Translations under genes and position numbers: made by a program
Origin: an uncultured Clostridia bacterium
Lineage (GTDB): Bacteria > Bacillota > Clostridia > Christensenellales > CAG-138
Assembly (NCBI GenBank): GCA_947168855.1
Contig: CAMVNO010000004.1
Location: 1-64,000, forward strand
Direction of reading: 5' to 3'
DNA: 64,000 nucleotides
Notes under the pieces: model-generated
Databases searched by the model: none
What the model saw: the letters and a program-made list of their open reading frames with translations, nothing else
What the model was told of the DNA's origin: nothing
Shown here: positions 9,001 to 57,574 of the stretch, piece by piece
Layout: each line of letters begins with the position of its first letter
Numbering within the stretch: the first letter of the stretch is position 1

Positions 9001-11221
9001 TCGGGATGGTGCCGCCCTCCCGCGCAAGACCGTCGTCGCCCCAGTAGCCATTGCCGCCGCTGCCGCCGGTTGTGGTGTAATAAATCGTGACCTGATCGCC
9101 GGTCTTAACGGTCTGCAGATTGCCGAACGCAGTACCGTTGTCTTCACTGTAGTTATACTTGACCGTTCTTACGATACTGGTATAATACTCGTAAGTCTTC
9201 TGCGCATTGGTTGCGTCAACCGCGTCTGTCGCGCTCTGCACCATAAAGACAACCGTATATTGCGTCTCCGCCGGCGTCCACTTTGCATAGATCGTGGTGT
9301 CCGCGGTCAGCGGGGAGCCCCATGTGAACAGGGTCGTCATGTTCTCGTCCGCATACCAGTTCTCAAACGTGTAACCGGTACGGGTCGGATCGGTCGGCTT
9401 CACGGTGTTTTCGCCGTTCGAATAGAACACAGGTCCGAAATACTCTGCGGAAGTATTATCCTCAAAGCCGAGAACCTGCTGATTCTTTTCGATATTGTTG
9501 TTGTAAACAAGCCAGTAACCGGTACGGATGTACGGATAGAGAACGACGTCGTTCGTCACCGTGAACGTGCCGCTTGCTTCGCCGGGCTTATAGATGACCG
9601 CGCCGGTGGGATAGGTATAGGTATCGCCGCTGACGGTGGGTGCGGAGGTCGTCCAGCCGTCGAACGTCTGCGTGGTCTTTTCCGGGGTATAGGAGGTAGA
9701 AACCGTATAGCTTGCGCTGCCGTCGGTCAACAGAACGATGTCCGTCTTGATCGCCGCGCCGTGCTGATCCAGGTAGGTGACGGTGCGGGATTCGAACGCC
9801 GTTGCGTAGTAGTGCAGCGTTACGCCCATATCGACGAAGTCGTTGGTCGTATCGCCGTCGGTATTCTTTTCGAGCTCCGCGCGGATGTCGTTGCGAACCG
9901 CGTCAAAGGACAGCTTGGTGGTCGTCGTGTTCCAGGACGCGGTCTTCGACCAGCCGTGGAACAGATAGCCTTCCGGCATCGTGCCGGGGCCGGGATCGTA
10001 AACGACCTTCTCGAACATGGCGTCGGTATCCATATCCTTCGGCTTGACGAGGATCTCGACCGCTTCGGTGTCAGTCTCGTTGGAACCGTCCGCCTTCATG
10101 CGGTGGAACAGGACCTTGATGCGCGCGTATTCCGCGTCGCCGCCGGTACCGATGACGATATAGACGGAGAAGGAGGAGGAGTCGAAGCTGACGCCGTAGG
10201 GAGACGCCGTGTCAACCCAGTCGAGGACGCCTTCTCTGATTTCGTGATAGAGCGTGAAGGTGTCGCCCGCCATCTTTCTGCCGGTGTTGATTTCGACATG
10301 GACCTTGTTCTGATCCTTCGGCTCGATCTTCTTGCCGTCGGCGTCATAGAACGTGATGTCGACCGCGACCGCGTCGGTCAGGTTCTTGTCCGCCGGAACG
10401 ACGGTCGACGCAAGCGCGCGCGCTTTCGCATCTGCAACGTCGGTAACGCGCATCGTCGTGCCCGCAGGGAACACGCCCTCCGCAACGGAGGCCTTGACGA
10501 CGACGCCCTTGGTCGTGGTGAACATAAAGTTCTGCGCCGGCATCTCGGCTTCGTCGTCGCCCTCATATTTCGGGCTGACGGTCATAGAACGATTGACGAT
10601 CGTCGTTCTGTACACGGCTCTGCCGTTCTCGTTGACCCAGCCGAGGAAGGTTTTGCCTTCGATCACGGGCGCTTCGGGAAGCTCGCCGATCGCTCTGCCC
10701 GCCAAAACCTGCAATACGACAAGAACATTGCCGTCCTTGTCGAGGAATGTTACGGGGAGATATAAGCCGCCGTCGGGATCAATGATCGGAAAAGTGGGCA
10801 GGATCGGATCCACAGGATCCTCGGGATTCTCGGGATCCTCCGGATTCTCCGGGTTCTCGGGATCCACCGGGTTCTCCGGGTTCGCCGGGTTCTCGGGATC
10901 TGCCGAGGGCTCCGGATCTGCCGGGGGCTCCGGATCTGCCGAGGGCTCGGGGTCCGCCGGGGTCTCCGGATCTGCCGGGGTCTCGGGGTCTGCCGGGGGC
11001 TCCGGATCTGCCGGGGTCTCGGACTCGCCGGGAGTGCCTTCGTCCTCCTTGCCGCCGGATTCGCTGTCGCCGCGTTCCACAATAACAACGTCGCCCTCAG
11101 ACGCGTCCGCTCCTGTGGAATCGGCAATAACTGCCGCCGGCAGCATCTGCAGCACCATGATCAGCGAAATGAGAATCGCCCAGGTACGTCTGCCGAAAAG
11201 GATCTTGGTCAGCTTAGACAT
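2..11221 (-). CDS. Giant secreted surface protein/adhesin, C-terminus beyond window: signal peptide, Pro/Glu-rich (DPExPAD)n spacer, InlB/Listeria-Bacteroides-type repeats, MucBP-like segment, long array of YDG/MBG-type repeats
   Basis: Reading the minus strand from ATG at 11221 (SD GGAGGAAC) gives MSKLTKILFGRRTWAILISLIMVLQMLPAAVIADSTGADASEGD..., then open to the window edge; recurrent K-x-YDGTxLT...YT..x.GTLTIT units; GYTFENWYAD..TIYAKW repeats. Confidence 0.9.
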   Translation of the reverse strand, partial: MSKLTKILFGRRTWAILISLIMVLQMLPAAVIADSTGADASEGDVVIVERGDSESGGKEDEGTPGESETPADPEPPADPETPADPETPADPEPSADPEPPADPEPSADPENPANPENPVDPENPENPEDPENPEDPVDPILPTFPIIDPDGGLYLPVTFLDKDGNVLVVLQVLAGRAIGELPEAPVIEGKTFLGWVNENGRAVYRTTIVNRSMTVSPKYEGDDEAEMPAQNFMFTTTKGVVVKASVAEGVFPAGTTMRVTDVADAKARALASTVVPADKNLTDAVAVDITFYDADGKKIEPKDQNKVHVEINTGRKMAGDTFTLYHEIREGVLDWVDTASPYGVSFDSSSFSVYIVIGTGGDAEYARIKVLFHRMKADGSNETDTEAVEILVKPKDMDTDAMFEKVVYDPGPGTMPEGYLFHGWSKTASWNTTTTKLSFDAVRNDIRAELEKNTDGDTTNDFVDMGVTLHYYATAFESRTVTYLDQHGAAIKTDIVLLTDGSASYTVSTSYTPEKTTQTFDGWTTSAPTVSGDTYTYPTGAVIYKPGEASGTFTVTNDVVLYPYIRTGYWLVYNNNIEKNQQVLGFEDNTSAEYFGPVFYSNGENTVKPTDPTRTGYTFENWYADENMTTLFTWGSPLTADTTIYAKWTPAETQYTVVFMVQSATDAVDATNAQKTYEYYTSIVRTVKYNYSEDNGTAFGNLQTVKTGDQVTIYYTTTGGSGGNGYWGDDGLAREGGTIPSIAGLTRLENAYYTFSTKNDASATVTVKGDGSTKIYVYYDRVAITYNFVTDTDMSYKTISGYELAYDSYYGYYYIKINGSWHRIGSNGSAVWNASAITNVTSNRYIYYTYNGTNYTNGRYNSGTANITLPYSSYTGMYGAPFDASNWPDPGTGYVWYVESSDYYWDYPIPRFYTPLGATSVTATTINFYIRSHTVSTDTATIYIVSQNPDTGAWTDTPEEYSLPSGVTVTFTNADDYHCYGYNLSRNSVTNGFVSRTTDLPIYYGTGSASNYIKVNSSTKKIWIYLSCVSYSLVFESKTTGGRRTETLNTYEHFAPYEYKNGVKYVPNDGGDQYYFAGWYYDTAYQNPVDWENDTMPAQNTVIYAKWNPLRFRIVMDITGGPDVGLTRSDITFPQDLDGDPDTNQALSFRLNAGEQVSNSVNAATADNWVLAGWYLDEAHTIPFNFNLGIYENTTGMDMTYGDLEGDAKSGTVPGDTTGYNDNNNNEDPTKGEYIRGRLTIYAAWRPKTEGASGLSIVYDAVDGTFTGGGTTFNDPNPYTVGSEVWAQPGSTPNDSDLVFSRWVIQKWENGAWVDTTDFAYPGSSFVPDETYAKVTENQDGSKTYTIQLRAEYKADNEESVPTHIYWYKNDGSGDTVRRDDNLLINEAVNIPGAPSRTGYDFLGWYKKSFTEEEMQAMGGEVPTSYACTEPNFIWYNGTGYYANEACTQGCSQVAADEWLPYDNLYAVWAPHEYDVRFNANAPAGTSASGSMDNQHFVYDTAQNLSENAFTVPNYKFLGWSTSANGGVVYTNMQEVKNLTATDDAVVPLYGVWELDVAPITVHHYLLGTTTPVAEDVTESKTIGSSYTANAATTFLSGFSGYNLTADSYNPSQTITVAAGENVIIVYYTLPLTITASSASKTYDGTTLTGSYTVTGALASDEATINSAIGDPLTIGPGVGSQTYSAPTAGIPSYYNVTATTGTLTITAKQVTVKANDKSKTYGAADPTLDATVTGLVGNDTITYTVARQAGENVGHYVITPSGETTQGNYTIVYQTGDFEITKKAITITADDKTKVYGDQDPALTATVTGAETGDTINYTLSRQAGEDVGDYTITVTPGDNPNYDVTVVPGTFTITPKAVTVTITGANDTKTYDGDEHTATGFTATANDAGYNTANVALKSGSTAEAKRTDVGTTNMGLTAADFVNNDPNYNVTFSVTDGYMTISKRAVTVTITGHNDTKPHDGQSHSISGYDVTISDTLYTAADFTGPAQTISATRTDVGKTPMGLAEGTFTDSSANFTNNNANFTVTFNVTDGYMEITPEGAITVKITGHYVTHDYDGTKYTATGYDVEIIGSTAFTAASFTFDGTNTVSRTDAGTTNMNLVPGNFHVTDTQTFPNVTFEIVEDGYVTIKPIDITVTIVGANSSDMYNGSEQSVSGYEVTEISNPLFKEADIVYDGNNGSATRTHVVEGSDATGKTMMGLTSANFSTTNPNFGTVTFNVTDGYQEITKRSVTLTSATDSKEYDGTALTNSNVAVTGDGFVSGEGATYDVTGTRTIVGSSENTFTYTLNDGTDANDYTISTVPGTLTITDRTNKFEITLTPNGFTTVYDGEEHTAAGFKLTGADAAVENGGTGTAVTFAVNGVTYTMTGVTTTNPVEVNVGTYFNKLQGTPVIKDANGNDVTAQFTVNGMTNVGILMISQRTLTITVNQRTLPYNGSVQYGYDIEGEVSGSATEYTIDGLVSGQTLSIDYTPAAGTNAGTYNNGNFDVSTLVIKSGDTTIQTGSSNTTNYVVYTNVGKLIIEKINLEITITGHTATETYNGSNYTVEGYDAQGNSNLFDASKIVYNGSTTITEKDVGNYPMGLDKDNFSYNDPNFTNVTFVVAQDGKLTINKAPLTITVIAQNYTYNGTPQGEDNATYTENFADKVTVEGLQGTDALTSITLNGSQTDVGVYPEEIVATNPVISGDNLKNYDVTIVNGTLTITKEPLIITIRGNKAEYDYDGEEKTISGYTVEYDGWFTEDGDELVGEIEYDANGNVVGTALDGFTLGLKSDVTAEVTKKNPGTYPMGLAQSSFEYDAFMAAYGNNYTIQFNVIDGELKINTTDLPIKITSATKEWPYDGQLHKEDVYTVTYDVLDNDGNVTETKTITADEGSNGLVFTLPTGDKLTITSTAGGVRDVNDTVSNNNKFTYAIDNGEFYTNVTTEFGTLSITPINVTVTLHGNTDSKTYDGNDHTVTGYTVDSIQIDGVDTTLYKETDFGLVNGKTASATRRHVVENGDNSGKTMMGLTEDDFENKNTNFATVTFVYTDGWQEITPATLTITTGTDSKEYDGTPLTADGSITGFVNGETADFKVTGTITNVGGPVTNSYTLVFAGEEGASETATAIRSDYTLSENLGTLTITTSSKVLKVESASDTWTYDGNAHTKYEYTVTYGDDETHTVTIAEDETTGTVELSTGDVVTITPAASATITHVAETTVNNAFTWDVENATYYTKGEDVVGTLSVTPATLTITTGTDSKEYDGTPLTADGSITGFVNGETADFKVTGTITNVGGPVTNSYTLVFAGEEGASETATAIRSDYTLSENLGTLKITASNVEIVVVPGSGSKTYDGTPLTKTEHDDFTVTGVPEGFTWTATADGTVTNVTPGEGEKAVNAVIAFQIFNAAGEDVTDQFANIDTSATGTLEITPATMTVEAIDYNHYYDAKYHNGGVANASSMPAGTTYRYSVYDPETETWGDWSDTAPSIRNVGTITYKVKATNPNYYDAEDEGTLIVTPASSIAWGAKVNRYVGYYDGQWHTASIDVSNVTYYHYFEEENYDDLHTEVFIYQWVGEGTATYSELSSAVIDNPYAPLPEGWEMIDEFPYEKDVCNKVFSAYVGVADSEGHFNYSGNIILTGCRIVIKPRPVTLVSETAEKPYDGTPLTRPTVTGWEMDTENNTGFVTGEVTDVKAIGSVTTVEEGEVTNTIVYTPTEAFKETNYTIVKEEGTLKITANDSALTITSSTKSWTYDGQTHTEEVYTV
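1302..1549. repeat. 248-bp exact direct repeat inside adhesin gene, copy 1
   Basis: Identical to 1872..2119 by line-by-line comparison; offset 570 bp (190 codons, in frame). Confidence 0.9.
1872..2119. repeat. 248-bp exact direct repeat inside adhesin gene, copy 2
   Basis: Identical to 1302..1549. Confidence 0.9.
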
Positions 11222-29653: not shown

Positions 29654-30877
29654 ATGCAGGAAGTTGACAATCGCGCACCGGAGTTTGCGCCGATGCACGA
29701 GCCTGTTCGGGGCGTAAAACACAAAAAGGGGCTGTTCGGAACAGCAGCGCCGTTTATCGCGGCTGCTGTGGCAGGCGGCGCCCTTTTGTCGTCTTATTTC
29801 GCTCCGCTCGCAACGACGCCCGCGCCGTCCGACCCTCCGTCCGCCGTGGCAGAGGCCGCGAAAACGCCATCTCCGTCGCCGAAGCTGACGTTCTCCCCGA
29901 CGCCTTCCGAAGCGCCGACCGAACCGCCGACCGATGCGCCGACCGAAGCGCCTTCCGATGCGCCGACCGAAGCGCCTTCCGATGCGCCGACCGATGCGCC
30001 TTCCGAAGCGCCGACCGACGCGCCCACCCCAACGCCGTCGCCCAAACCGACGCGCAAACCGACGCCCACACCGACGCGCAAACCGACGCCCAAACCGACG
30101 CCCAAACCGACGCCGACACCGACGCCCACACCGACACCCACGCCCACGCCGACGCCGACACCCACGCCCACGCCGACACCCACGCCCACGCCGACGCCCG
30201 TTCCGCATAGCAACCCGGAGATCGTGGAGTGGTATGCTGTGCCGTGGATGGACGACTTCCCGACGAGCGGCGAATTCCGCATCGGCTTCCAGATGGATCT
30301 GAACGAGCTCAAGGGCGGAACGGCAACCGCAACGCTTTACAGCAACGAAAGCGGCAGCTTTGCTTCCACGGGACTGTCGACGACCTACGTCGATACCGGC
30401 GACGACACATGGATGTACGACGAATTTGATTATACCCTCAACCGCGGCGGAGCGCCCGGCAAGACGGCGAAGGTCAAGATCGTGATCAATTACACCTATC
30501 CGGACGGAATCTCCGAAACACTCGAATCGCCAGAAATGTTCGTTTATGCCGGGACCTTCGTCACACCGAAGTCCGCGTCCGTCAGCGGTCCCGCCGGGTC
30601 GCAGACGCTGACCGTCGAGTTCAAGGTGGACAGCGGCATGGTCAACATATCGCAGATTGATCTGGGCGACGCATATTACAACATGGTCCGCGTGATCGAC
30701 GACGACAATACGGAATACGTCCCGCTGTCGACGCCGGATATGTCGTGGAACGGGGACGTCGTTCGCATGGTCTTCAGCATGACAGATACGCTCATGCCGG
30801 GACAGTATCGGTTTGATTTTTCCTTGTATTATAACGATTGGGAGGGCAATTCCAATGAAACATTCAACGTCGACTAA
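29654..30877 (+). CDS. Membrane-anchored exported protein with long Pro/Thr/Ala linker and C-terminal beta-rich domain
   Basis: N-terminal TM APFIAAAVAGGALLSSYFAPLA; (APTEAPSD)n and (PT)n repeats at about 29900-30205. Confidence 0.8.
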   Translation: MQEVDNRAPEFAPMHEPVRGVKHKKGLFGTAAPFIAAAVAGGALLSSYFAPLATTPAPSDPPSAVAEAAKTPSPSPKLTFSPTPSEAPTEPPTDAPTEAPSDAPTEAPSDAPTDAPSEAPTDAPTPTPSPKPTRKPTPTPTRKPTPKPTPKPTPTPTPTPTPTPTPTPTPTPTPTPTPTPTPVPHSNPEIVEWYAVPWMDDFPTSGEFRIGFQMDLNELKGGTATATLYSNESGSFASTGLSTTYVDTGDDTWMYDEFDYTLNRGGAPGKTAKVKIVINYTYPDGISETLESPEMFVYAGTFVTPKSASVSGPAGSQTLTVEFKVDSGMVNISQIDLGDAYYNMVRVIDDDNTEYVPLSTPDMSWNGDVVRMVFSMTDTLMPGQYRFDFSLYYNDWEGNSNETFNVD

Positions 30878-42856: not shown

Positions 42857-43121
42857 GGGGATGTTAAGAAAGCGTCTTGCATTTCTTAACATCCCCTATG
42901 AATTGCAGCACGGCTGCATGAATTGCCTGACGGCATGAATCGACTTCGCCGTGAATTGACAACTTTGTTGTCATTTATGAAGGTTTTCCGTTCGGAAAAC
43001 CGACCTTCATGACGGCATTGCCGTCAATTCATGTCCAAAGGACAATTCACGGAGCGAAGCGAGAATTCACGAAGAGGGTGTTCGGAAACAGTTCTATGTT
43101 TCTGAACACCCTCTTTTTTTT
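42857..43121 (+). repeat. Multi-hairpin intergenic element, full copy 1 (between hsp20 and spo0A)
   Basis: GGGGATGTTAAGAAA...TTTCTTAACATCCCC hairpin, serial short palindromes separated by ATGAATTG/CAATTCATG, central TTTTCCGTTCGGAAAA hairpin, final GAGGGTGTTC..GAACACCCTC-T8 terminator. Confidence 0.85.
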
Positions 43122-53766: not shown

Positions 53767-55578
53767 TCAAAGACGGATCCCGTCGATCTCCTCGGTCAGC
53801 CGGATGATCTCTTCGATCAGCGAGCCGATGTAGTCCACGGTCGCGTTCAGCGGACCGTCTGTGCCGATGTCGACGCCCGCGAGCTTCGCCAGCTCCAGCG
53901 GCGTTTTCGAGCCGCCCGCGGCAAGGAAGCGCTTCCAGTCCGCAACGGCGGGCTCGCCCTCTTCGCGGATGCGCAGCATCGCCTGCGTGGCGACCGTGAG
54001 TCCCGCGCTGTACGTATAGGGATACAGCCCCATGTAGTAATGCGGCTGCCGCATCCAGGTCAGCTCCGCGCCCTCCGGGATCTCGACCGCGTCGCCCCAG
54101 AACAGTTCGAGGTTTTTGCGGAAGATGTCCGAAAGGATATCCGCGTTCACGCTGCCGCCCGCGTCGATGATCCTGTACACCTCGCGCTGATACCACGCTT
54201 CCCGGAGGTGCGTGACAAAGTTGTGATAATACGTGTTCGAGATCAGACTGGACAGCACCCAGCGGCGGAAGCGTTTGTCCCCGTTCGTCTTCAGCAGGTA
54301 GTTTGCAAGCAGCAGCTCGTTCATCGTCGACGGCGCTTCTACAAGGTACATGGTCGGGCTGCAGTCGTAATAGGACTGCGCCGCGTCGCCGTACATGCTC
54401 TGTCCGGCGTGTCCGAGCTCGTGCGCGACGGTGAACACGTCCGACATGCGGTCGTTCCAGTTGAGCAGGATGAACGAATTCTGCCGGTAGATGCCCGAGC
54501 AGAAGCCGCCGGTGGACTTGCCGATGTTCTTCGCAAAGTCGATCCAGCGCTCGCGGTACGCGCGATCGACCATCTCCGTATAATCCCCGCCGAGGATCGA
54601 AAGCGCGTCATGCACATAGCGCTGCGATTCTTTGATCGTGACCCGCGGATCGTATTCCGGATCCACCGCGATCTTCAGATCGGCGAACGTCATTTTGTCG
54701 AGCCCGTGCTTCTTCTGCAGCAGCTTTGCGTAGCGGCGCATATGCGGCGCAAGGCGCTCGGTGATCACGTCGATCTGACGGTCGTACATCTCGCGCGTGA
54801 CCTTCTGCTCAAACAGAAGATAGTCGAACACGTCCTTGTGCCCGCGCAGCTCGGACATGACCTTTTCCTCTGTCACGCAGGCGTTGTACGCCGTCGCGGT
54901 CGTGTTTTCGTATTTTTTCAGCGTATCGTAGAACCGCCGGAACGCGGCGCGGCGCACGGCGGGATCCGCTTCGAGCTCGTAATCGTCCTCATAGAGCGAA
55001 TAGCCCATTGGATATTCCTTTCCGTCGACCGTGATCGGATTGAACGCAATATCCGCCAGCTTCAGCGTATTGTAGACCTCATACGGCACGTCGAATGTCC
55101 TGCCGAGCGCGGCGAGCACCTTTTCCGTTTCGGGAGAAAGCATGTGCTCCTTCTTTGCAAGCAGGTTCTCGAGGTATACGCGACAGCCCTTCGCAAGCTT
55201 CACCGCCGCCTGCAGCTCTTCCGCCGGCGCCAAAAGGATCTCGCTGTCGACAAACGCCAGCTCCTTATACAGGCGCGTCATCTCGTCGCCGATCTTTTCG
55301 TTGCGTTCGCGGAGCGCGTTGTCGGTATAGTCCGCTTCCACCGCAAGCCCGGAATACGACCAGATATTGCCCATCGTCGGAAGGAACGCTTCCTGCTCAT
55401 CGAGACAGGCGACGATCTGTTCCGCGGTCGTGAGCTTTCCCGCGTATGTATCGACAAAGGTCCTGACCTGCTTTTTCAGCGCGTCGAGCGCTTCCCACAT
55501 CTGCGATTCCTCCGCAAAGATCAGCGAAAGATCCCATGTTTCCTGTACAGGAACGTCCTTGCGTGCACACAGTGCCAT
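53767..55578 (-). CDS. pepF: Oligoendopeptidase F
   Basis: VFTVAHELGHAGQSMYGDAAQSYYDC; M3 family layout. Confidence 0.95.
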   Translation of the reverse strand: MALCARKDVPVQETWDLSLIFAEESQMWEALDALKKQVRTFVDTYAGKLTTAEQIVACLDEQEAFLPTMGNIWSYSGLAVEADYTDNALRERNEKIGDEMTRLYKELAFVDSEILLAPAEELQAAVKLAKGCRVYLENLLAKKEHMLSPETEKVLAALGRTFDVPYEVYNTLKLADIAFNPITVDGKEYPMGYSLYEDDYELEADPAVRRAAFRRFYDTLKKYENTTATAYNACVTEEKVMSELRGHKDVFDYLLFEQKVTREMYDRQIDVITERLAPHMRRYAKLLQKKHGLDKMTFADLKIAVDPEYDPRVTIKESQRYVHDALSILGGDYTEMVDRAYRERWIDFAKNIGKSTGGFCSGIYRQNSFILLNWNDRMSDVFTVAHELGHAGQSMYGDAAQSYYDCSPTMYLVEAPSTMNELLLANYLLKTNGDKRFRRWVLSSLISNTYYHNFVTHLREAWYQREVYRIIDAGGSVNADILSDIFRKNLELFWGDAVEIPEGAELTWMRQPHYYMGLYPYTYSAGLTVATQAMLRIREEGEPAVADWKRFLAAGGSKTPLELAKLAGVDIGTDGPLNATVDYIGSLIEEIIRLTEEIDGIRL

Positions 55579-55690
55579 ATCAATTCCTCTTTCCGCCGTT
55601 TCGGCTGTTGTTTTCCGGACGCAGACCGGTCCGTCTGATCCATATTAACACAGAATCCCCGCGGATGCAACGGATCCGCGAAACCAAAAA

Positions 55691-55959
55691 GGGGCTGTTC
55701 AAAAACGCTTTGAACAGCCCCAATGCATTCTCGCTTCGCTCCGTGAATTGTCCAAAGGACATGAATTGTGCCTTGCGGCACATGAATTGACGCCGAACGG
55801 CGTCATGCAGGAAGATTTTCCGTACGGAAAATCAACATTCATGTGACCTTTGGTCACAATTCATGCCGAAGGCAATTCATGGCGCAGCCAATTCATGCGG
55901 CAACGCCGCAATTCATCGGGGATGTTAAGAACTGCCGATCAGAGTTTCTTAACATCCCC
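55691..55959 (-). repeat. Multi-hairpin intergenic element, full copy 2 (between pckA and pepF)
   Basis: On the minus strand same module order as 42857-43121; GGGGATGTTAAGAA hairpin at the pckA side, GGGGCTGTTCAAA hairpin-T5 at the pepF side. Confidence 0.85.
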
Positions 55960-55975: not shown

Positions 55976-57574
55976 TTATGCCTTCGGACCGGCGTTCTTG
56001 ATCGCCTCGGGCATGTCGGGGTACTTCTCGGTGAAGTTCTTCTGGAACATACCGGCAAGCTTCTTCGCCTGCGCGTCGTAGGCGTCCTTGTCCGCCCAGA
56101 GGTTTCTGGGATCCATGATCTCTGCGGGCACGTCCGCGCCGGGCACGAACGCCGGCACGTCGAGGTTGAACACGTCGTTGTGCGTGAACGGGACGTTCTC
56201 CTTTGCGTACGCGTCGTTCAGCGCGGCGGTGATCATCGCGCGGGTGTAGCGCAGCTTCATGCGCGGGTTCTTTGTGCCGTCCGGATTGACCGCGGGACCG
56301 GAGACCCAGCCGGTGTTCACAAGGTAGACCTTGGTGTTGTACTTTTCGATGCGCTCGCCGAGCATGCCCGCGTAGACCGATGCGCGCAGCGGCATAAACG
56401 GCTCGCCGAACAGCGTGGAGAACGTCGGGACCGGCTCGTTGATGCCGATCTCGGTTCCGGCGACCTTGGAGGTGAAGCCGGTGACGAACTGGTACATCGC
56501 CGCTTCCTTCGAAAGCAGGGAGATCGGCGGAAGCACGCCGAACGAGTCGCAGGTCAGGAAGATGACGACCTTCGGAATGCCGCCGATGCCGGGGATCGCG
56601 GCGTTCGGAATGAATTCGACCGGATAGCCCACGCGGCTGTTGATCGCAAGGCTCGGATCGGAATAGTCCGGATGACGCTTGTCGTCGACCACGACGTTCT
56701 CGACCAGCGCGCCGAAGCGGATCGCGCGGTAAATCTCCGGCTGCTCCTCCTCGACGAGGTCGATGCACTTGGCGTAGCAGCCGCCCTCGATGTTGAAGAT
56801 GCCCTCGTCGTCCCAGCCGTGCTCGTCGTCGCCGATCAGCATGCGGTTCGGGTCGGCGGACAGCGTCGTCTTGCCGGTGCCGGAAAGTCCGAAGAAGACC
56901 GCGGTCTCTTTCGTTTCGGGGTCCATGTTTGCCGAGCAGTGCATCGGCAGCGTGCCCTCCTGCGGGAGGATGAAGTTCATAGTGGAGAAGACGGACTTTT
57001 TGATCTCGCCCGCGTACTGGCTGCCGGCAACGAGGATCATGTGCGCTTCATAGTCGATCATGATCGCGGCTTCGGAGCGGGTGCCGTCGATCTCCGGGCT
57101 GCACTTGAAGCCCGGGCAGGCGATCAGCGTGTAATCCGGCTCGCCGAAGGAAGCCAATTCTTCCTCGGTCGGACGAACGAGCAGGTCGCGGATGAACAGC
57201 GCTTCGCTTGCGTACTCGCAGATCACGCGGAATTTCTTCGCGTATTTCTTGTCCGCGCCGGCAAAGCCGTCGAACACGAACACCTCGCGTCCCTGCAGGT
57301 AGGCGACCATCTTGGACTTGATGGCGTTGAACTTTTCGCGCTTGACGGGCACGTTGACCTTGCCCCATGCGATCAGGTCGTGAACGCCTTCGGAATCCAC
57401 GATAAACTTGTCCTGCGCGCTTCTGCCGGTGTACTTGCCGGTCTTGACGAGCAGCGCGCCGTTGTCCATGATGACGCCCTCTTTGCGCTCCAGCGCATGC
57501 TCATAGAGCTCCGGGACCGTCAGGTTGCGGTAGACCGCTTTGGGACGAATGATGCCGAGATGTTCGAGATTCAT
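55976..57574 (-). CDS. pckA: Phosphoenolpyruvate carboxykinase (ATP)
   Basis: GALLVKTGKYTGRSAQDKFIVD; FFGLSGTGKTTLSADPNR; IGDDEHGWDDEGIFNIEGGCYAK. Confidence 0.97.
   Translation of the reverse strand: MNLEHLGIIRPKAVYRNLTVPELYEHALERKEGVIMDNGALLVKTGKYTGRSAQDKFIVDSEGVHDLIAWGKVNVPVKREKFNAIKSKMVAYLQGREVFVFDGFAGADKKYAKKFRVICEYASEALFIRDLLVRPTEEELASFGEPDYTLIACPGFKCSPEIDGTRSEAAIMIDYEAHMILVAGSQYAGEIKKSVFSTMNFILPQEGTLPMHCSANMDPETKETAVFFGLSGTGKTTLSADPNRMLIGDDEHGWDDEGIFNIEGGCYAKCIDLVEEEQPEIYRAIRFGALVENVVVDDKRHPDYSDPSLAINSRVGYPVEFIPNAAIPGIGGIPKVVIFLTCDSFGVLPPISLLSKEAAMYQFVTGFTSKVAGTEIGINEPVPTFSTLFGEPFMPLRASVYAGMLGERIEKYNTKVYLVNTGWVSGPAVNPDGTKNPRMKLRYTRAMITAALNDAYAKENVPFTHNDVFNLDVPAFVPGADVPAEIMDPRNLWADKDAYDAQAKKLAGMFQKNFTEKYPDMPEAIKNAGPKA

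Follow-up and report, generated by a model that had tools for sequence, protein, structure and literature searches.

A modular palindromic repeat, probably taking the place of intrinsic terminators, at gene 3' ends in an uncultured Clostridia bacterium

The element behind pckA and its genomic copies

Between pckA, the identity of which was confirmed, and pepF (oligoendopeptidase F), on the minus strand of the window (the whole 64,000-nt stretch of DNA analysed), lies one copy of a repeat ~270 nt in length, at positions 55691-55959 (Table 1). All of the modules that a previous reading of the letters alone (the sequence-only reading) had listed there are present as it described them, and the start of the copy is, as it also noted, 16 nt past the pckA stop codon. 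The 5' half of the element consists of ATGAATTG boxes with short hairpins between them, and the 3' half of an inverted CAATTCAT array. Each end is formed by a strong hairpin with an outward T-tract on its own strand (T/A tracts); each of the terminal inverted repeats, GGGG(A/C)TGTT ... AACA(G/C)CCC(C/T), is itself a hairpin. In form, i.e. a GC-rich hairpin followed by a T-tract at a gene 3' end, the element qualifies as an intrinsic terminator; with its upstream A-tract, the outer 5' hairpin is predicted to be one that would stop bottom-strand transcripts.

Table 1. Features of the studied copy, its neighbouring genes and the second copy within the window
Feature	Coordinates	Strand	Remarks
pckA	55976..57574	-	gene upstream of studied copy
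Outer 5' hairpin GGGGATGTTAAGAA...TTCTTAACATCCCC	55918..55959	-	A-tract upstream
Unit 1 GCGGC-GTT-GCCGC	55897..55909	-	flanked by ATGAATTG boxes
Unit 2 GGC-TGC-GCC	55881..55889	-	
Unit 3 GCC-TTC-GGC	55865..55873	-	
Unit 4 GTGACC-AAA-GGTCAC	55843..55857	-	
Core hairpin GATTTTCC-GTAC-GGAAAATC	55814..55833	-	helix 1 of covariation structure
Unit 5 GACGCC-GTTC-GGCGTC	55789..55804	-	helix 2 of covariation structure
Unit 6 GTGCC-GCAA-GGCAC	55768..55781	-	helix 3 of covariation structure; flanked by CAATTCAT boxes
Unit 7 GTCC-TTT-GGAC	55750..55760	-	helix 4 of covariation structure
Fixed module CGGAGCGAAGCGAGAAT	55727..55743	-	mini-hairpin GC-GAA-GC with GA/GA flanks
Outer 3' hairpin GGGGCTGTTC...GAACAGCCCC + T5	55686..55721	-	intrinsic-terminator-like
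pepF	53767..55578	-	gene downstream of studied copy
Copy 1, same family	42857..43116	+	18 nt past HSP20 gene, upstream of spo0A

The window contains two of the ~28 copies in the 2.42-Mb host genome (G000), i.e. the studied copy and copy 1. The module order of the two, previously described as the same, is conserved only in part: copy 1 has CC-TGAC-GG followed by (C)GAC-TTC-GCC(G) where the studied copy has GGC-TGC-GCC followed by CC-TTC-GG (units 2 and 3 being swapped), lacks the GTGCC/GGCAC unit and has a broken base in one stem. Eight of the genomic copies are 96-100% identical and have unrelated flanks, and a further ~20 are diverged (71-84% identity). The fixed module gives 30 genomic matches at up to 2 mismatches, compared with 0 for the reversed pattern, and the core of the outer 5' hairpin, GGNTGTTNAGAAA, gives 54, all but a few of which lie inside elements. 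The end hairpins are thus not the general terminator type of this genome, which also rules out solo ancestral terminators as the repeating unit; the few solo hairpins (L267, L268 and L271) look like remnants of deletions.

Several other arrangements were observed. One copy (L259, C7:54.1-56.1 kb) is split within a hairpin unit by ~1.9 kb with two lipoprotein-like frames; it was considered as an autonomous copy with an internal gene and rejected, since inspection of the insert by eye revealed no transposase. Short TGAATTG hairpin arrays without outer terminators, some directly 5' of start codons, are present at L261-L266, L269 and L270. A near-same element copy lies behind different, non-orthologous genes in G000 (L015) and in a second species, G002 (L068), a likeness that suggests transfer between species (or bin contamination). 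Elsewhere in the window, repeats of 12- and 9-nt period occur within likely coding sequence (29877-30207 and 10784-11035).

Placement at gene 3' ends and comparison with relatives

All 28 of the censused copies adjoin a gene 3' end, which is far from the random placement that would have told against the sequence-only reading. With genes called by a simple codon-usage caller, 16 of the 28 lie between convergent genes, 12 between co-directional genes and 0 between divergent genes; the convergent proportion exceeds that of the gaps in the window (6 of 31; P about 1e-5). The element usually starts 7-21 nt past the stop codon, as do the terminators of relatives. The constant orientation relative to transcription proposed earlier applies to both copies in the window, but is not a rule, there being 8 copies with and 4 against transcription between co-directional genes, in addition to the 16 in convergent gaps.

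For 20 copies besides that at pckA, we compared the ends of orthologous genes, 49 in all, in the related species G022, G002 and G015. None carries the element; 38 of the 49 have one ordinary intrinsic terminator, mostly 10-20 nt past the stop codon. A search of the G000 element flanks for the hairpin arms of these terminators gave a single find, a 7-mer. The pckA orthologues in the genus are mostly 88-96% identical, and the element is absent behind all of those for which the downstream region was read. Four metagenome pckA loci likewise have ordinary terminators, and a metagenome search for a strain of the same species with an empty pckA site returned only other species with ordinary terminators. 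At the orthologous site behind pckA in G022 (L137), the ordinary terminator appears to have been split by a different palindromic repeat, one of the CCCTCAGTCACC...GGGGAGCC type.

At loci syntenic on both sides (e.g. L003, L017, L022 and L029), the element lies at the position of the relatives' hairpin; at L003 the T-tracts of the element and of the relatives' terminator align, and at L017 a GGGACCC hairpin common to three relatives is gone in G000. Terminators also vary among the relatives themselves, and part of the apparent replacement could be ordinary turnover; this is disfavoured at L011, L016, L017, L018, L022 and L029, where a similar hairpin is common to at least 2 relatives.

An alternative is a classic MITE, i.e. 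a non-autonomous element moved by cut-and-paste through a transposase supplied in trans and acting on the outer hairpins, with terminators as landing sites because insertion there is tolerated. The eight near-identical copies with unrelated flanks, the inverted GGGG...CCCC ends and the patchy distribution in the genus (motif in 7 of 23 genomes) are as expected of such an element, but it has no target site duplication, with adjacent direct repeats of only 0-2 nt in 23 copies, and the native terminator hairpin is lost rather than interrupted. Neither a transposase linked to the element nor a match in phage or plasmid records was found, and carriage by either was set aside. The one Y1/RAYT transposase match in G000 is marginal (E 7e-4, below cut-off) and hairpin arrays are absent beside the Y1 genes of relatives, so mobilisation of the Y1 type is unlikely. 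Overall, we regard a MITE origin as improbable. The position in the slot, the loss of the native hairpin and the lack of duplication argue that the element occupies the place of the terminator, taken either in a single step or by insertion followed by loss of the hairpin.

Recombination, stem pairing and loop polarity

In G022, two subfamilies (A and B) could be typed over ten segments; among the 12 loci typed, 7 are pure (one partial) and 5 are mosaic. At L107 the crossover lies within unit 1, placing an A arm opposite a B arm in a mismatched stem. In G000, L008 is a chimera, its young body being joined to an old-copy 5' hairpin such as that of L015. Judged from these mosaics and the chimera, conversion takes place between copies, which recombine with one another.

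The studied element is predicted to fold far more stably than shuffled sequences, both as RNA (-132.5 versus -81.0 +/- 4.7 kcal/mol; z -10.9) and as DNA (z -10.8). In a structure written from the sequence and applied to 24 copies representing several congeneric species, 96.8% of stem cells are paired, compared with 35-50% when the structure is slid by 1-3 columns. Fifteen pairs are altered on both sides, and the number of doubly changed cells is 54 versus 16.4 +/- 2.7 in shuffles that keep relatedness among the copies (0 of 500 as high), a strong signal but one that does not amount to a phylogenetic test. Among all loci fetched, 344 of 373 TGAATTG units contain a stem that pairs perfectly over 3 bp or more, and 57 different stems are represented. 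The compensatory stem differences noted between the two window copies thus extend to the wider set, and the description of variable but paired stems on a fixed scaffold is borne out by the pairing and perfect-stem counts.

As causes, the sequence-only reading had offered selection on structure or stem-swapping by recombination. Swapping is evident in the mosaic copies; selection is not separable here from a process in which imperfect palindromes are corrected against a template as the DNA replicates (templated correction), and which could generate compensatory changes unaided. Small stems with short loops are a known substrate of such correction, and the mismatched stem of the L107 recombinant implies that broken intermediates exist. 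Templated correction as the whole explanation is nevertheless unlikely in our view; it leaves unexplained the fixed boxes and the strand specificity of the loops.

The loops have a near-perfect polarity. Of 211 triloops read on the CAATTCA strand, 132 fit GNA and 4 fit TNC, and GNNA accounts for 76 of 86 tetraloops and TNNC for 0; in the TGAAAT arrays typical of Gut-1 (see below), GNA triloops number 61 and the reverse 0 (n=76), and 15 of 16 tetraloops are GNNA. The G...A polarity tracks the orientation of the boxes, not the direction of transcription. Tetraloop position 3 is often a pyrimidine (GNYA in 31 of 76 in TGAATTG arrays and 10 of 15 in TGAAAT arrays). Both d(GNA) and d(GNNA) are known stable DNA hairpin loops, whereas the counterpart rule for RNA is GNRA; given the pyrimidines at position 3, the observed loops fit the DNA rule better. 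The pattern hints, short of proof, at selection on folded DNA, and its occurrence in two box families provides a sharp handle for distinguishing selection on DNA folding from that on RNA folding.

Relationship to Gut-1 RNA and interpretation

A three-box TGAATTG array pattern is present in 20 of 246 genomes of the class, in 16 genera, with 0 control matches. Many of the class arrays have a conserved unit order, CC-TTC-GG, AAATC-GATTT and AGCC-GGCT, followed by an inverted ACAAC/GGC/TTGC array. In layout they recall Gut-1 RNA (Rfam RF01706), which Weinberg et al. 2010 (PMC2864571) described as non-coding and as confined to sequences from the human gut. Gut-1 has three hairpins separated by (G)UGAAAU, and the element likewise has short tandem hairpins between fixed boxes, here RTGAATTG. 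The window contains no match to the RF01706 covariance model at the gathering score (50 bits), nor does L001 at E<=1; the best TGAATTG arrays score 25.4-29.9 bits, below gathering, one class-level array at 25.4 bits aligning over the full length of the model. The element also differs in its palindromic layout, in the terminator at each of its ends and in the lack of a linked tRNA; the Gut-1 entry, filed as a single ncRNA, covers one half only.

Matches to Gut-1 were found in 19 of 19 array genomes tested and in 0 of 5 array-free genomes; they exceed the cut-off in 12 of the 24, with up to 47 in one genome. Every match inspected is one half of a palindrome behind a terminator, and in G183, 9 of 14 Gut-1 elements lie directly behind a tRNA gene, with 2 more doing so via a tandem copy. 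Gut-1 thus seems to be a component of an interspersed repeat linked to terminators, which would give this orphan 'RNA', on record since 2010, a different identity, namely one half of a multicopy palindrome similar to the present element and often directly behind tRNA genes. By its architecture, the element is a member of a wide and little-described group, Gut-1 among them; we found no published description of these boxes in the literature.

That the element is instead a functional RNA, i.e. a transcribed 3' UTR or small RNA that selection retains for what it does as RNA, in line with the Rfam classification of Gut-1, would accord with the stem covariation, the RNA fold (z -10.9), the architecture in common with Gut-1 and the fact that several class-level copies have a TATAAT-like sequence at their 5' end, but is decidedly unlikely given tens of copies behind unrelated genes, a motif in only 7 of 23 genus genomes, and G...A loops that permit a pyrimidine at position 3, depart from GNRA and follow the boxes rather than transcription. 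A kink-turn reading of CGGAGCGAAGCGAG, which can be fitted on paper to the consensus (AATTC-ACG-GA-GC...GC-GA-GAATT), is not claimed; at the corresponding position, Gut-1 units alternate with ordinary base-paired stems, and RNAalifold pairs CGGAGCGAAGCGAG differently.

Among described repeats, BOX of Streptococcus pneumoniae (PMC3049150) is similarly a modular mosaic with variable internal modules, a resemblance of plan only, and SPRITE, from the same source, resembles a terminator and is found close to gene 3' ends and in convergent gaps. No sequence in common with the element was recognised in either. The element has 7-8 distinct covarying hairpin units and strand-specific loops, and its probable replacement of native terminators has no counterpart in the passages of PMC3049150 consulted. 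REP/REPIN/BIME sequences with RAYT (e.g. PMC3116915) are also extragenic, mosaic palindromes of high copy number, but the element has no associated RAYT and its boxes and loops differ.

With moderate confidence, we favour an interspersed repeat of modular, palindromic build which sits behind genes in the slot of the intrinsic terminator and is itself probably a terminator working in both directions; it is best read as mosaic, terminator-replacing and probably mobile. The outer hairpins with their outward T-tracts would terminate transcription in both directions, and the element would have replaced the host terminator, spreading by being copied into terminator-like hairpins or older copies. The route may be copy-in recombination between hairpins flanked by A-/T-tracts, or between copies, possibly via single-stranded folded DNA, with stem pairing presumably maintained by selection on folding. 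The element suggests that interspersed repeats can colonise bacterial transcription terminators and take their place, a seldom considered way for gene 3' ends to evolve.

More tentatively, 'self-spreading terminators' may exist across the class, in which box-hairpin palindromes (TGAATTG, TGAAAT/Gut-1 and perhaps TGATATT) propagate by displacing the host's intrinsic terminators downstream of protein-coding and tRNA genes via strand-specific, G...A-looped hairpins, Gut-1 RNA then being one half of such a palindrome and not an RNA gene.

Other arrays in the class display further variety. Arrays with mixed ATTTCAC and AATTCAC boxes occur at L105 and L127. At L294-L318 (G064, G220, G183 and others), the Gut-1 palindromes start with a terminator, often right behind the CCA end of a tRNA, and shuffling among loci extends to the terminators and the arrays. 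Boxes of a third type (GTGATATT/AATATCAC) occur in G183 (L319-L325), in a hairpin array that follows protein genes and opens with a GCCGAGTGTCC hairpin resembling a terminator.
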